A DNA stretch of 49,887 nt from a bacterium (GTDB lineage Bacteria; Patescibacteriota; Minisyncoccia; UBA6257; JAGOQP01). Below the pieces are notes generated by a model. That model was given only the letters and a program-made list of their open reading frames with translations. It had not been told where the DNA came from and did not search any database. Made by a program: the position numbers and the translations under genes. Of this stretch, positions 3,078-41,397 are shown piece by piece; the stretch's first letter is position 1; the number at the start of each line of letters is the position of its first letter. The stretch covers positions 1-49,887 of the forward strand of contig JAKBUF010000003.1 of the NCBI GenBank assembly GCA_021844025.1, given 5' to 3'.

Positions 3078-4463
3078 ATGGCACAGCAAAAAAAGAAAAA
3101 ACTTATTCCTGTAACCGATATTGTTCCGTCTGATTCTGTTATTGAACAAAAAACAAGAAAAGAACCCACTCAAGTCATTTTATCTGACGAAGCTTTTTCG
3201 GATGTTTCCGATATAAAAATTGATGCGTTTCGTGATTTTGGAAAATCTTCTCATTCCGCGTCTTCTCGCGCTGCTTTGCAGCCCTTACCCGAATCATGGG
3301 AAACCCCCACTCCTCCACGCCGTAAAAAACGGTCGTATAAAGGAATATTAGCGGGTATGGTAGTGCTCGCGGCTGCTATGTATGTGGTGTTTGGTATTCT
3401 GCCGCGCGTTACCGTTTCCATTGTGGCTAAAAAAATTCCAGTGCAATTACAGACGTCTTTTAGTGTAGTTGCCACCTCATCTATTACTATGACCGACACA
3501 CAAGTGCCGGGTGAAATTGTTACCGAACAAAAAACAAACATTTTTAAATTTCCTGCAACAGGAAAAGAAACCACACAACAAAAGGCCAAAGGTACTGTAG
3601 TGATTTTTAATACTTACAGCACCGCACCACAAGTGTTGGTTGCAACTACCCGTTTGCAGTCTCCCGATGGAAAAATTTTCAGGTTAGTAAATCGCGTGGT
3701 GGTTCCTGGTGCAAAAAAATCCGGTGCAGTTCTTGAACCCGGGAGCATTGAGGCAGATGTGGTCGCGGACCAAACAGGCGCTTCTTATAATATTGATCCG
3801 GTTGATAAATTTACTATACCCGGATTTCAGGGTAGTGATAAATACAACAAGTTTTATGCATCATCAGTTGATCCTATGGCAGGGGGAAGCGATGGCCAAA
3901 CCACCGTTGCTACCAATGATGATGTTGATAAGGCCCAACAAGATGCGGTACAGAAAATGAAAGATAGTATTACTTCAACGATCGCACTTAAAATTCCCAA
4001 CGAGTTTACATACGTGAAGGGATCAGAACAGTTTCAGATTCTTACTAAAAAGGTAGATACTCGTCTTGATAAAGATAATAATTTTACGGTAGCTCTTGAG
4101 GCTCAGGAATCGGTAGTAATTTTTAAAGAAGGGGATATAAAATCGTTATTACAAAAACAGGCTCAGCAGCAGGGGACTATTCCTACCGATTATGCGGAGC
4201 AACAGGGAACTATTACCTATGATCAACCAGTGGTTGATTGGAAAGGGGGTAGTATGATGTTGCCAGTTTCTTATAAGGCCATTTTCTGGAAGCCAATAGA
4301 CGTGAATCAGTTACGCGCTAATATTTTGGGGAAGAATGAATCTGATCTCAAAACAACCGTTCTGTCTTTGCAGGGTATTGATAAGCTAACCGTTTCTTTC
4401 TGGCCGTTTTGGGTGTCTCATGTTCCGAGTTCATCTTCTCGGGTTACTATTACTGTTGAGTAG
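3078..4463 (+). CDS. single-pass membrane-anchored hypothetical protein (baseplate J-like type)
   Basis: N-terminal basic region, one TM helix, then a long extracellular domain; ATG at 3078 preferred over the track start; TATACT just upstream. Confidence 0.6.
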   Translation: MAQQKKKKLIPVTDIVPSDSVIEQKTRKEPTQVILSDEAFSDVSDIKIDAFRDFGKSSHSASSRAALQPLPESWETPTPPRRKKRSYKGILAGMVVLAAAMYVVFGILPRVTVSIVAKKIPVQLQTSFSVVATSSITMTDTQVPGEIVTEQKTNIFKFPATGKETTQQKAKGTVVIFNTYSTAPQVLVATTRLQSPDGKIFRLVNRVVVPGAKKSGAVLEPGSIEADVVADQTGASYNIDPVDKFTIPGFQGSDKYNKFYASSVDPMAGGSDGQTTVATNDDVDKAQQDAVQKMKDSITSTIALKIPNEFTYVKGSEQFQILTKKVDTRLDKDNNFTVALEAQESVVIFKEGDIKSLLQKQAQQQGTIPTDYAEQQGTITYDQPVVDWKGGSMMLPVSYKAIFWKPIDVNQLRANILGKNESDLKTTVLSLQGIDKLTVSFWPFWVSHVPSSSSRVTITVE

Positions 4464-16689: not shown

Positions 16690-16875
16690 ATGGCAAAAAA
16701 ATCAGTTATTGCTCGATCAGAAAAAAAACCGAAGTTTTCAACACGTGTGGTACGCCGCTGTTTTCGCTGTGGTCGTAAACACGGATATATGCGCGACTTT
16801 GAATTATGCAGAATTTGTTTTAGAGAAATGGCGGGTCGTGGAGAGATTCCCGGTGTGCGTAAATCATCATGGTAA
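16690..16875 (+). CDS. rpsN: 30S ribosomal protein S14, zinc-binding type
   Basis: [61 protein letters not shown], CxxC...CxxC. Confidence 0.95.
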
Positions 16876-16885
16876 ATATTAGTCA

Positions 16886-16960
16886 TCAAGTAGAAAGTTT
16901 TAAAGTTATAAAGAAATTTTTACTTGATAACCTTAAAACTTGATAACTTTCAACTTACAC
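16886..16960 (+). repeat. self-complementary AT-rich repeat, AACTTGATAACTTT family
   Basis: AAAGTTTTAAAGTTATAAAG ... CTTGATAACCTTAAAACTTGATAACTTTCAACT. Confidence 0.6.
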
Positions 16961-24891: not shown

Positions 24892-24941
24892 TTTGCTATT
24901 CTTTGATATTCTATATTTGTGTTTACTTTTATTCTTACTTT

Positions 24942-25072
24942 ATGCCCAGTAACTTTACTTTATACGCCGTAGGCGAAAAGACCTGTGCTGGAAATAACAG
25001 AAAGAAATAAAACGTAGTTTTGCATACATATTCATAAAAAGTATAATTTAAATAAAGTAACGTTAACTGGGT
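24942..25072 (+). repeat. CCCAGTAAC element copy 1 (upstream of serS): putative structured RNA leader or small inverted-terminal-repeat element
   Basis: Terminal stem CCCAGTAACTTTACTTTA/TAAAGTAACGTTAACTGGG, hairpin CGCC-GTA-GGCG; flanked by TATG on both sides. Confidence 0.75.
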
Positions 25073-26305
25073 ATGATCGATATTGATCTCATTCGAAAAC
25101 AGCCGGAAAAAGTAGCCGAAGGATTACGTAAACGAGGAAAAGACACCTCGCTGCTTGAATCATTTAAAAAACTTGATGATACTTGGCGGGAGCTAATAAA
25201 AAAAAGTGACGAGATTCGTGCTCAACAAAAAAAGGCTGCCCAAGATCGTGATCAGGAGAAGGGGAGAGAACTTAAAGAACAACTCAAGAAACTCGAAGAA
25301 AATGTAACTGAGCTTGAGCGTGAGAGATATATTCTTTTATTAGAGTTTCCCAATATTCCATTTGATGATGTGTTAGTTGGTCCCGACGAATCTCATAATA
25401 AGCAAATCCGATTTTGGAAAGAAAAACCGGAGTTTGATTTTCCTATAAAGGATCATATGGAATTAGGAGAGGCACTTGGTATTATTGATACCCAAAAGGC
25501 GGCGCATGTCGCGGGTTCTCGATTTTATTATTTAAAAGGAAAGGGAGCGTTGTTAGAGTTAGCTTTGGTTCAATACGCATTTGAAACACTTACTAAAGAG
25601 GGGTTTGAGGCCATTATTCCTCCGGTAATGATTCGTCCTGATACGTATGAGCGTATGGGGCGCCTTACTGATTCGCAGAAAGAAGAGCGCTATTATTTGC
25701 CTAAAGATGATTTATATTTAGTGGGAAGTGCCGAACATACTTTGGGGCCATTGCATATGGATGAAACGTTTATGCTCGATCAATTGCCAAAAGAATATGT
25801 TGGTTTTTCCACTTGTTTTCGTCGGGAGGCAGGAACCTACGGGAAAGACACCAAGGGAATTTTGCGAGTGCATCAATTTGATAAAGTTGAAATGTACGCA
25901 TTTTGTACCCCAGAAAAGTCTGAAGATGAACATAAAAAACTGCTTTCCATGCAAGAGAAGTTGTTTCAGGGACTAGAAATTCCATATGAAGTGGTTGAGA
26001 TTTGTACGGGGGATATGGGTCCTACCGATGCACGGCAGTTTGATGTTAATGCATGGATCCCCAGTCAACAAACATATCGGGAAGTTGCATCGTGTTCTAA
26101 TACCACCGACTACCAGACAAGGGGAATTAATACGAAAGTAAAAACTGTTGATGGTAAAACTCAATTTGCCCACGCGCTGAACGCAACCGCTCTTGCGATG
26201 AGTCGTACTATTATTGCTATTTTAGAAAATTACCAACAAAAAGATGGTTCGGTAATAATACCCCAGGTGTTACAGAAATATACAGGATTCAATTCTATTG
26301 TATAA
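25073..26305 (+). CDS. serS: seryl-tRNA synthetase
   Basis: MIDIDLIRKQPEKVAEGLRKRG; STCFRREAGTYGKDTKGILRVHQF. Confidence 0.96.
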   Translation: MIDIDLIRKQPEKVAEGLRKRGKDTSLLESFKKLDDTWRELIKKSDEIRAQQKKAAQDRDQEKGRELKEQLKKLEENVTELERERYILLLEFPNIPFDDVLVGPDESHNKQIRFWKEKPEFDFPIKDHMELGEALGIIDTQKAAHVAGSRFYYLKGKGALLELALVQYAFETLTKEGFEAIIPPVMIRPDTYERMGRLTDSQKEERYYLPKDDLYLVGSAEHTLGPLHMDETFMLDQLPKEYVGFSTCFRREAGTYGKDTKGILRVHQFDKVEMYAFCTPEKSEDEHKKLLSMQEKLFQGLEIPYEVVEICTGDMGPTDARQFDVNAWIPSQQTYREVASCSNTTDYQTRGINTKVKTVDGKTQFAHALNATALAMSRTIIAILENYQQKDGSVIIPQVLQKYTGFNSIV

Positions 26306-32194: not shown

Positions 32195-32317
32195 TTCTCT
32201 CCTCTCTAGTTATTGGTGGTATGAAATTTCTGATGTTAGTATGGCATATTATAATACTGGCGTCAATTCTTAATCTATGCACAAAATCTCATTATTCTGC
32301 TATACTGTAACAGTTAT

Positions 32318-32397
32318 CAAGTTCAAAGTTGTAAAGTTATAAAGGAATTAATTTTCCACTTGATAGCCTTATAACTTGATAACTTTATAACTCATTC
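32318..32397 (+). repeat. AACTTGATAACTTT family repeat
   Basis: AGTTATCAAGTTCAAAGTTGTAAAGTTATAAAG ... CTTGATAGCCTTATAACTTGATAACTTTATAACT. Confidence 0.6.
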
Positions 32398-32526
32398 ATG
32401 CCCAGTAACATTACTTTATACGCCAAAGGCGAAAGGAATATATACTGGGGGGATAGAAAAAAGTAGAATATATTTTGTATAATTACTATAGAGAACATAA
32501 TTTAAATAAAGTAATGTTAACTGGGT
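32398..32526 (+). repeat. CCCAGTAAC element copy 2 (upstream of the 132-aa ORF)
   Basis: CCCAGTAACATTACTTTA/TAAAGTAATGTTAACTGGG, CGCC-AAA-GGCG hairpin; upstream CATG, downstream TATG. Confidence 0.75.
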
Positions 32527-32925
32527 ATGGATCCTATTAATTACGAAGAGCTTGCAAAAGAAGTTATAAAACAGCAACAGAAAAGTCCGGAACAAATACC
32601 CCAAAGCCACAAAGAGGCGGTGGTCTCTATTTTAAAAGAAAAAATGTCTGCGCAACAACCCGTTGTTCCTCAGCCCACATATCAACAACCAAAACCTTTA
32701 CAACCAAATATTGTCTCTACTGACCCCGATTTACCAACCTATGCCGCAAGTGCTCCGGAGGAATCAAAACAAGAAGTAAGAAATCTTATTGAATTCACTC
32801 TTTCTAAGGGCCTTTCCCAAGGGATTGCTCAAGCGGCAAAATCTGATCCGTTTGTGATTGATATGTATCACGATGCGCTTGCTGAGCATATTGTAACGCA
32901 AATGAAAGAAAAGGGAATGATTTAA
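32527..32925 (+). CDS. hypothetical protein paired with the downstream VirD4/FtsK-like ATPase
   Basis: 132-aa ORF, Gln/Pro-rich middle, immediately upstream of the ATPase. Confidence 0.65.
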   Translation: MDPINYEELAKEVIKQQQKSPEQIPQSHKEAVVSILKEKMSAQQPVVPQPTYQQPKPLQPNIVSTDPDLPTYAASAPEESKQEVRNLIEFTLSKGLSQGIAQAAKSDPFVIDMYHDALAEHIVTQMKEKGMI

Positions 32926-40283: not shown

Positions 40284-40307
40284 CTTTTTTACTGGAGATT
40301 AAAGCAT

Positions 40308-40436
40308 ATGCCCAGTAACTTTACTTCACACGCCGTAGGCGAAAATGAAGTATTGTAAAGTGGGCAAAAAAACAAAGCTATTACAATAACAAACAGATTG
40401 TAGGAGCTAATTACAAGTAAAGTAAAGTTACTGGGT
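40308..40436 (+). repeat. CCCAGTAAC element copy 3 (upstream of rpmA)
   Basis: CCCAGTAACTTTACTT/AAGTAAAGTTACTGGG perfect terminal stem, CGCC-GTA-GGCG hairpin; TATG on both flanks. Confidence 0.78.
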
Positions 40437-40715
40437 ATGGCACATACGAAGCAGCTAGGGTCCACGAAAAACGGCCGGGATTCCCTAGCAAAACGATTAG
40501 GCATCAAAAGACAGCAAGATCAAACCGTAAAAGCGGGTGAAATTTTAGTACGTCAACGGGGAGCAAAATATTTGTGTGGTGACAACGTTCGCCGCGGAGC
40601 CGATGATACTCTCTATGCCGCAAAGCCGGGTAGGGTTGCTTTTAAATTAGTTAAAAAGGCACTGTTTAATGGAAAGGCTCGGTATGTCACTAAGGTTTCG
40701 GTGGTTGGCGTATAG
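40437..40715 (+). CDS. rpmA: 50S ribosomal protein L27
   Basis: [25 protein letters not shown] ... GEILVRQRG. Confidence 0.96.
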
Positions 40716-40809: not shown

Positions 40810-41277
40810 CTAGTCACCGGCTACTTTAATTTTTACCTGTGCTTTTATAGTTTCTTCTCCCCTACCCAATCGTGTAGTGATTAGGTGCTCTCCCAATTCT
40901 TTTATTGGTTTTATGTCTAGATGTACGTCTTCCATTCCCAGTAGACGGTCTCTGTTTTCTAAAAATTTTCCAATAACTTTTTGTATTTCTTCTTGGTGTA
41001 TTGAGGTAAACACTTCGTTGTTTTTTCCAGTTTTCACTTTAAAATCAAATGTTTGATTTTGTAATTCGGGAAGTAACGCGGCGATAACTTGTTTTCTTTT
41101 TTCTCTCTGTTCTGATTCCCTGTTCTTTTTTTGTTCCCAATTGCGAATGATCTCTGGTGTTGCTACTACCGCTAGTTTCTTTGGGAGCAATGCGTTCTTT
41201 GCGTATCCGCTGGAAACCTCAACCACCTCTCCTTGGTTGCCAACTTTTGGAACAAATTTAATAAGTAAAATTTTCAT
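40810..41277 (-). CDS. rplI: 50S ribosomal protein L9
   Basis: MKILLIKFVPKVGNQGEVVEVSSGYAKNALLPKKLAV. Confidence 0.95.
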   Translation of the reverse strand: MKILLIKFVPKVGNQGEVVEVSSGYAKNALLPKKLAVVATPEIIRNWEQKKNRESEQREKRKQVIAALLPELQNQTFDFKVKTGKNNEVFTSIHQEEIQKVIGKFLENRDRLLGMEDVHLDIKPIKELGEHLITTRLGRGEETIKAQVKIKVAGD

Positions 41278-41397
41278 ATTAGTTATCAAGTTCTAAAGTT
41301 ATAAAGTGAAAAACATAAATATCAATCCTCTTTTACCATTATGGGGCGTAATTACTATACCCATTAACGATATAGGCTGTGATACTTATACCGAATT

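Follow-up and report, generated by a model that had tools for sequence, protein, structure and literature searches.

Probable mobile hairpin elements positioned at start codons in a Patescibacteriota genome and its relatives

The three window copies and their family

Three genes in the window (the whole stretch of 49,887 nucleotides that was analysed) open directly behind similar sequences of 125 to 127 nt, which raises the question of what such a sequence is at the start codons of unrelated genes. An earlier note on this DNA proposed either a new class of cis-regulatory RNA or a small domesticated mobile element. The explanation favoured here, and considered probable, is that each of the three is an inserted copy of a small, non-autonomous, MITE- or REPIN-like mobile element with a preference for start codons; it draws on flanking repeats, empty sites, independent insertions at the same site, start-codon enrichment and paired arms.

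The copies lie where the earlier note placed them, on the forward strand at 24945-25071 (127 nt), 32401-32525 (125 nt) and 40311-40435 (125 nt). All three begin with CCCAGTAAC(T/A)TTACTT, carry CGCC-N3-GGCGAAA and end in AAGTAAnGTTA(A)CTGGG followed by TATG, and the claim of a near-constant length with a differing middle was confirmed, the middles being nearly unalignable. The TATG supplies the ATG of serS (TATG at 25072-25075; gene at 25073-26305, seryl-tRNA synthetase, whose product matches Pfam PF02403 and PF00587), of a 132-aa ORF (32526-32529; ORF at 32527-32925, which has orthologues in both congeners and no Pfam match) and of rpmA (40436-40439; gene at 40437-40715, ribosomal protein L27, PF01016), all on the forward strand. 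It had been overlooked that the upstream flank also ends in ATG, so the element sits between two ATGs: copy 1 follows a TATG at 24941-24944 (first ATG at 24942-24944) that is identical to its right repeat, copy 2 a CATG at 32397-32400 that matches the right TATG in three of four letters, and copy 3 a TATG at 40307-40310.

The three copies fold much better than their shuffled counterparts (z of -3.7, -5.8 and -6.9; as good in 0 of 200 shuffles). In the predicted fold a terminal stem some 19 bp long encloses a small CGCC-N3-GGCG hairpin, placed immediately within it, and then a variable remainder; in TATG copies the flanking AU/AU lengthen the terminal stem. In copy 1 the arms of the stem lie at 24945-24963 and 25052-25071, the right one with one bulged A, and the small hairpin, CGCC-GTA-GGCG, at 24965-24975. 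As the earlier note had held, this is not an ordinary terminator, and an attenuator was likewise rejected, because no U-tract follows the stem and the ATG abuts it. A promoter in the right arm was also rejected; one subfamily does end in TGATATACTGGG(T)ATG, but at 3-4 nt its spacing falls short of the usual 6-7, and the TGATATACTGGG end is not shared by other subfamilies. A peptide read from the first ATG (MPSN.T...) was rejected too, as copies of the ATGA type read MTQ-stop or leave that frame, and as the conserved letters are those of the stem. AT-rich intergenic repeats of degenerate sequence (AGTTATCAAGTT..AAAGTTATAAAG and its complement) are also present in the window, at 16872-16950, 32303-32386 and 41256-41313, and one of this type lies directly upstream of copy 2.

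The window copies are three of nine family members in this 528-kb genome (labelled G000); the other six lie outside the window. The earlier note's presumed assignment to Patescibacteria is consistent with the size of the genome and with its relatives. Members of the family measure about 125 nt (122-128 nt); their terminal stem has 19 bp, a small hairpin lies next to it and the middle varies. Eight were detected by a pattern search allowing up to three mismatches, and the ninth, a full-length copy at mreB, was added by a covariance model. Eight of the nine lie exactly at a start codon, namely that of serS, orf132, rpmA, rpmB, ruvA, mreB, ileS and a dksA-like gene, and the exception lies between rpsG and fusA (rpmB, ruvA, mreB, ileS, rpsG, fusA and the dksA-like gene are names that we presume from reading the protein sequences by eye). 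The orientation relative to the downstream gene is identical in all nine. The exception (L009/L055, G000:C20:10155-10282) begins at the last rpsG codons, with the rpsG stop codon TAA in the first bases of the element (TTTG followed by CCCGGTAA), and the native sequence past the target repeat repeats the same 11 letters, CCCGGTAATAT.

When the nine copies were aligned, the arms were nearly identical and the middles almost unrelated. For the covariance model and the pair counts, one bulged A was first taken out of the right arm in two copies. Changes on both sides were found at 7 of 23 pairs, a number reached by 0 of 500 shuffles, while slid structures gave at most 2. They comprise A-U replaced by G-C or C-G, U-A replaced by A-U, and two changes within the small hairpin, for which the mreB copy has the compensatory TGCT-ATA-AGCA in place of CGCC-GTA-GGCG. 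No Rfam family was above its gathering threshold for the element, and membership of an Rfam family was rejected. The check proposed in the earlier note, a covariance model and a search for homologues, gave further copies in the genome, homologues in relatives and support for the structure; none of the outcomes which it had named as contrary (no homologues, no structure support, or an exact Rfam or IS match) occurred.

Insertion, target duplication and the mobilising enzyme

Most of the nine copies have identical 4-nt sequences on both sides (TATG, ATGA or TTTG). Across about 248 kb of this genome, most inverted repeats built as CCCNG...CNGGG are flanked by perfect 4-nt direct repeats, which were found as TATG, ATGA, TTTG, TTGA, TTCA, TCCA, TTTA and GTTG. 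A strict ungapped scan of about 210 kb gave a 4-nt repeat at 7 of 14 inverted repeats with CCC...GGG termini, compared to 7 of 242 with other termini; among the latter seven, two are the same family read with a shift or with a TCC end, and another four belong to a single palindrome with TGCA flanks. Nested and tandem insertions of elements also occur. A 31-bp near-perfect palindrome, CCCCGTTACTCAACTAGTTTGAGTAACGGGG, with TTCA flanks (L038/L053, G000:C18:3478-3508) is nested in a larger hairpin, CCCGGATAGTAGAAC...TTCACTACCGGG, which is itself flanked by TTGA. A different repeat family is represented by a 30-bp palindrome, TCACAATGACCGCCATGGCGGTCATTGTGA, in four identical copies with TGCA on either side, at L051:229-258, 2463-2492 and 3164-3193 and at L053:15130-15159.

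Both congeners, two genomes of the same genus, lack the element and have just one ATG at the sites of serS, orf132, the dksA-like gene and rpmB; the rpmA site is empty in the congener in which this gene was located. Another subfamily, with arms GTAATACAACAACG or GTTATACAACAACG and ATGA/ATGA flanks, occupies ruvA (two in tandem) and mreB in one congener, and the other congener has no element there, so the same start codons have been hit independently by different elements. The independent genomes exclude an assembly artefact.

A MITE is shorter than 500 bp and has terminal inverted repeats. The elements described here, at 122-128 nt, have 19-bp inverted arms, a 4-nt target duplication and no transposase gene of their own, since they are too short and any frame opened at the first ATG soon meets a stop and is not kept among the ATGA copies. 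The mobile-element half of the earlier proposal has good support from the 4-nt duplications, the empty congener sites, the independent insertions at the same codon and the nested and tandem arrangements.

Of the cis-regulatory half, the conserved hairpin, with covariation in both helices, and the lack of an Rfam match hold, and most of the family-wide conservation can be attributed to transposition rather than to host function. A reading in which a cis-regulatory or mRNA-stabilising 5' hairpin is kept by selection, as an RNA element spread by transposition and now used by the host, is considered unlikely. It would explain the covarying stem and small hairpin (including the change seen in the mreB copy), the nearly identical arms beside nearly unalignable middles, the prevalence of core genes among the targets, and the gene C1, presumably PilB/GspE-like as read by eye, at which two congeners carry the same subfamily with identical 18-nt arms and a middle of 67% identity. 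However, arm conservation is also predicted by transposition, the sites are empty in congeners, the targets have no common pathway and other subfamilies occur in both orientations.

In the favoured reading the element is a palindrome whose ends read CCCNGTA...TACNGGG, with a terminal stem of 19 bp and a middle that varies freely; an enzyme acting in trans may mobilise it, and its insertion duplicates a 4-nt target. Longer members (about 105-140 nt) have a preference for landing on a start codon, and from the duplicated TATG or ATGA one ATG stays where it was behind the promoter while the second opens the intact ORF. Against this, neither an autonomous long element nor a linked transposase with the same ends was found in the 248 kb of this genome or in the fetched loci; moreover the middle is far more diverged than the arms while the flanking repeats are mostly intact, which is unlike a simple recent burst.

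Whether the enzyme could be a RAYT was considered. The element would then be a member of a REPIN/RAYT system with a HUH Y1 transposase, and the flanking tetranucleotide its cleavage site and not a target duplication, which is possible but doubtful. REPINs share with the element two conserved inverted ends, a variable spacer of similar length, a hairpin and the occurrence as populations per genome (PMC3116915), and many ends of the element begin with CCCNGTAG, reminiscent of the GTAG tag (PMC3733652). RAYT-like Y1 genes are present in six element-bearing relatives, several of them element-rich, but their flanking palindromes are unrelated to the elements, and none was found in G001, G114 or G218, several element-rich genomes thus showing no Y1 gene. 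In this genome there is an IS200-type TnpA alone, and it does not carry these ends. The RAYT-sized Y1 genes (about 230-240 aa) of G013, G047, G087, G165 and G200 (L228-L235) are flanked on both sides by genome-specific short palindromes, for example CTACGGGGTCTGACCCCGTAG in G047. A RAYT bearing the element's own ends, and so flanked by the same repeats, was not found. Unlike REPINs, the element also has 4-nt flanking duplications and its location at start codons; it is REPIN-like in architecture and MITE-like in its duplication, and fails the defining association with a RAYT.

Distribution and start-codon preference

With the class pattern ATGCCCNGTA-N90..119-TACNGGG-N0..1-ATG, elements of the same design with other stem sequences were detected at start codons in 16 of the order's 244 genomes; the 38 rows represent about 36 distinct places. 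Of 380 genomes sampled from the phylum, another 7 have the same pattern, and a reversed control pattern gave none in the order or phylum genomes scanned. Arms vary by genome (GTAGTGAAAACTCGA, GTAATACAACAACG, GTACTACAACTTCAA, GTAGGACAACTTCGAA, GTAGAGCTTCTTTG and others), and despite this the ends, the length and the position at the start codon recur between genomes. An ORF of at least 89 aa is opened at 26 of the 27 order-wide loci that were read. Read by eye, the targets are taken to include Obg, GAPDH, SHMT, LeuRS, S10 and S12 across the order, and AlaRS, HisRS and a PBP in the phylum set. Patterns of three subfamilies gave no matches or chance matches only in viral_contigs, on which a viral origin was rejected, and a GTDB pattern scan returned 16 chance matches, all without arms.

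As the class pattern demands ATGs, flank-blind searches were also run. Each of the 15 right ends in G001 is directly followed by an ATG, as are about 9 of about 26 copies in G165, where the remainder are intergenic and often flanked by TTGA. That most copies of one subfamily lie off start codons in G165 counts against a general start-codon preference, and comparison with G001 indicates that target choice differs between subfamilies.

Within 210 kb of this genome, start codons account for 16% of the TATG, ATGA and TTTG sites outside ORFs (27% for TATG alone). Nine of the 10 long elements here are on start codons (P 5.8e-7 against tetranucleotide availability), as are 15 of 15 in G001 (P ~1e-12, that is 0.16 to the 15th power); these values are approximate, as the background is that of this genome in both cases and comes from a simple ORF caller. 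Start-codon placement therefore exceeds the availability of the target tetranucleotides. Both TATG and ATGA are used, one base apart around the same ATG, which argues that the start site itself, rather than one fixed word, is chosen or tolerated.

Translation from the second ATG and known systems

Upstream of ordinary gene starts in this genome, -10-like hexamers lie 6-7 nt before the ATG in 26 of 204 cases, compared to about 4 per offset elsewhere, as expected of leaderless transcripts. A similar spacing of 5-8 nt precedes the first ATG in 7 of 24 element genes, which supports the view that this ATG may be at or near the mRNA 5' end, and many of the targeted start codons are probably leaderless. 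In the mechanism proposed for the mobile element, the insert would then become a 5' hairpin in the mRNA, its closing helix would set the old ATG beside the new one, and the ORF would be translated from the second ATG, RNase III perhaps having trimmed the stem beforehand. Correia-containing transcripts are cut by RNase III at their repeats (PMC10969869), which makes trimming a plausible route by which a short leader could be recreated.

A more elaborate possibility is that a ribosome which has loaded at the first AUG of a leaderless mRNA is passed by the paired stem to the second, so that translation would bypass the insert. Such start-codon hopping, which is held to be highly improbable, would fit the juxtaposition of two identical AUGs by a stem whose loop is free to vary, the promoter spacing described above, and the first codon itself: among 31 flank-blind cases it is ATG in about 29, with GTG in the remaining two. 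To initiate internally at the second AUG would be the simpler route, however, and copies of the ATGA type do not have the extended pairing. The retention of the first ATG is suggestive, but the flanking repeats of non-start copies are also largely intact here, so it can be explained by insertions young enough that this codon has merely not decayed. A wider proposal, considered quite improbable, is that of a phylum-wide class of mobile elements specialised for the start codons of leaderless genes, whose RNA hairpin might hand the ribosome from the first to the second AUG, either by bypass or by a trimming that recreates a leaderless end. Were this handover to occur, the element could go unnoticed in essential genes, comparable to an intron whose removal takes place in translation or mRNA processing.

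MITEs such as the Correia elements of Neisseria are likewise short, AT-rich and gene-free, with terminal inverted repeats and a target duplication, and are transcribed as hairpins (PMC10969869), a likeness in which the hairpin of the present element is a predicted one. The differences are the placement exactly at start codons with the ATG within the duplication, the conservation of the arms only, and the lack of a parent transposon in the DNA searched. The Rickettsia palindromic elements (RPE) are also palindromic units, of about 150 bp, found in many unrelated core genes of small genomes (PMC10969869); they are inserted within ORFs, keep the frame and are able to code for a peptide, whereas the elements here lie between two ATGs whose distance takes all three phases. 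Matched codons on either side of an insert, here both ATG, are shared with translational bypass in T4 gene 60 and Magnusiomyces mitochondria (PMC5009743). Unlike bypass elements, the insert is at the initiation codon.

The new part is the start-codon specificity of a MITE/REPIN-like element, for which the literature search, whose coverage excludes most subscription journals and preprints, found no earlier description. Mobile DNA would be expected least of all at the start codons of essential genes, and yet it has landed repeatedly in those of ribosomal proteins, tRNA synthetases, MreB, RuvA, Obg and others across a phylum of minimal genomes. Either start codons are a preferred landing site, which would mean a new mechanism of start-site targeting, or the inserts do something there; the pattern may otherwise show how leaderless genes tolerate a 5' hairpin. 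Annotation of start codons and promoters in such genomes may be about 130 nt off, and occupied and empty promoters are natural pairs for experiments.

In the congeners G486 and G602 (L236, L256), start-codon elements with different middles are present at the same PBP gene. The PBP gene in G528, G536 and G543 has no element and a longer stretch between the TATAAT box and the ATG, in which decayed relics may possibly be present.
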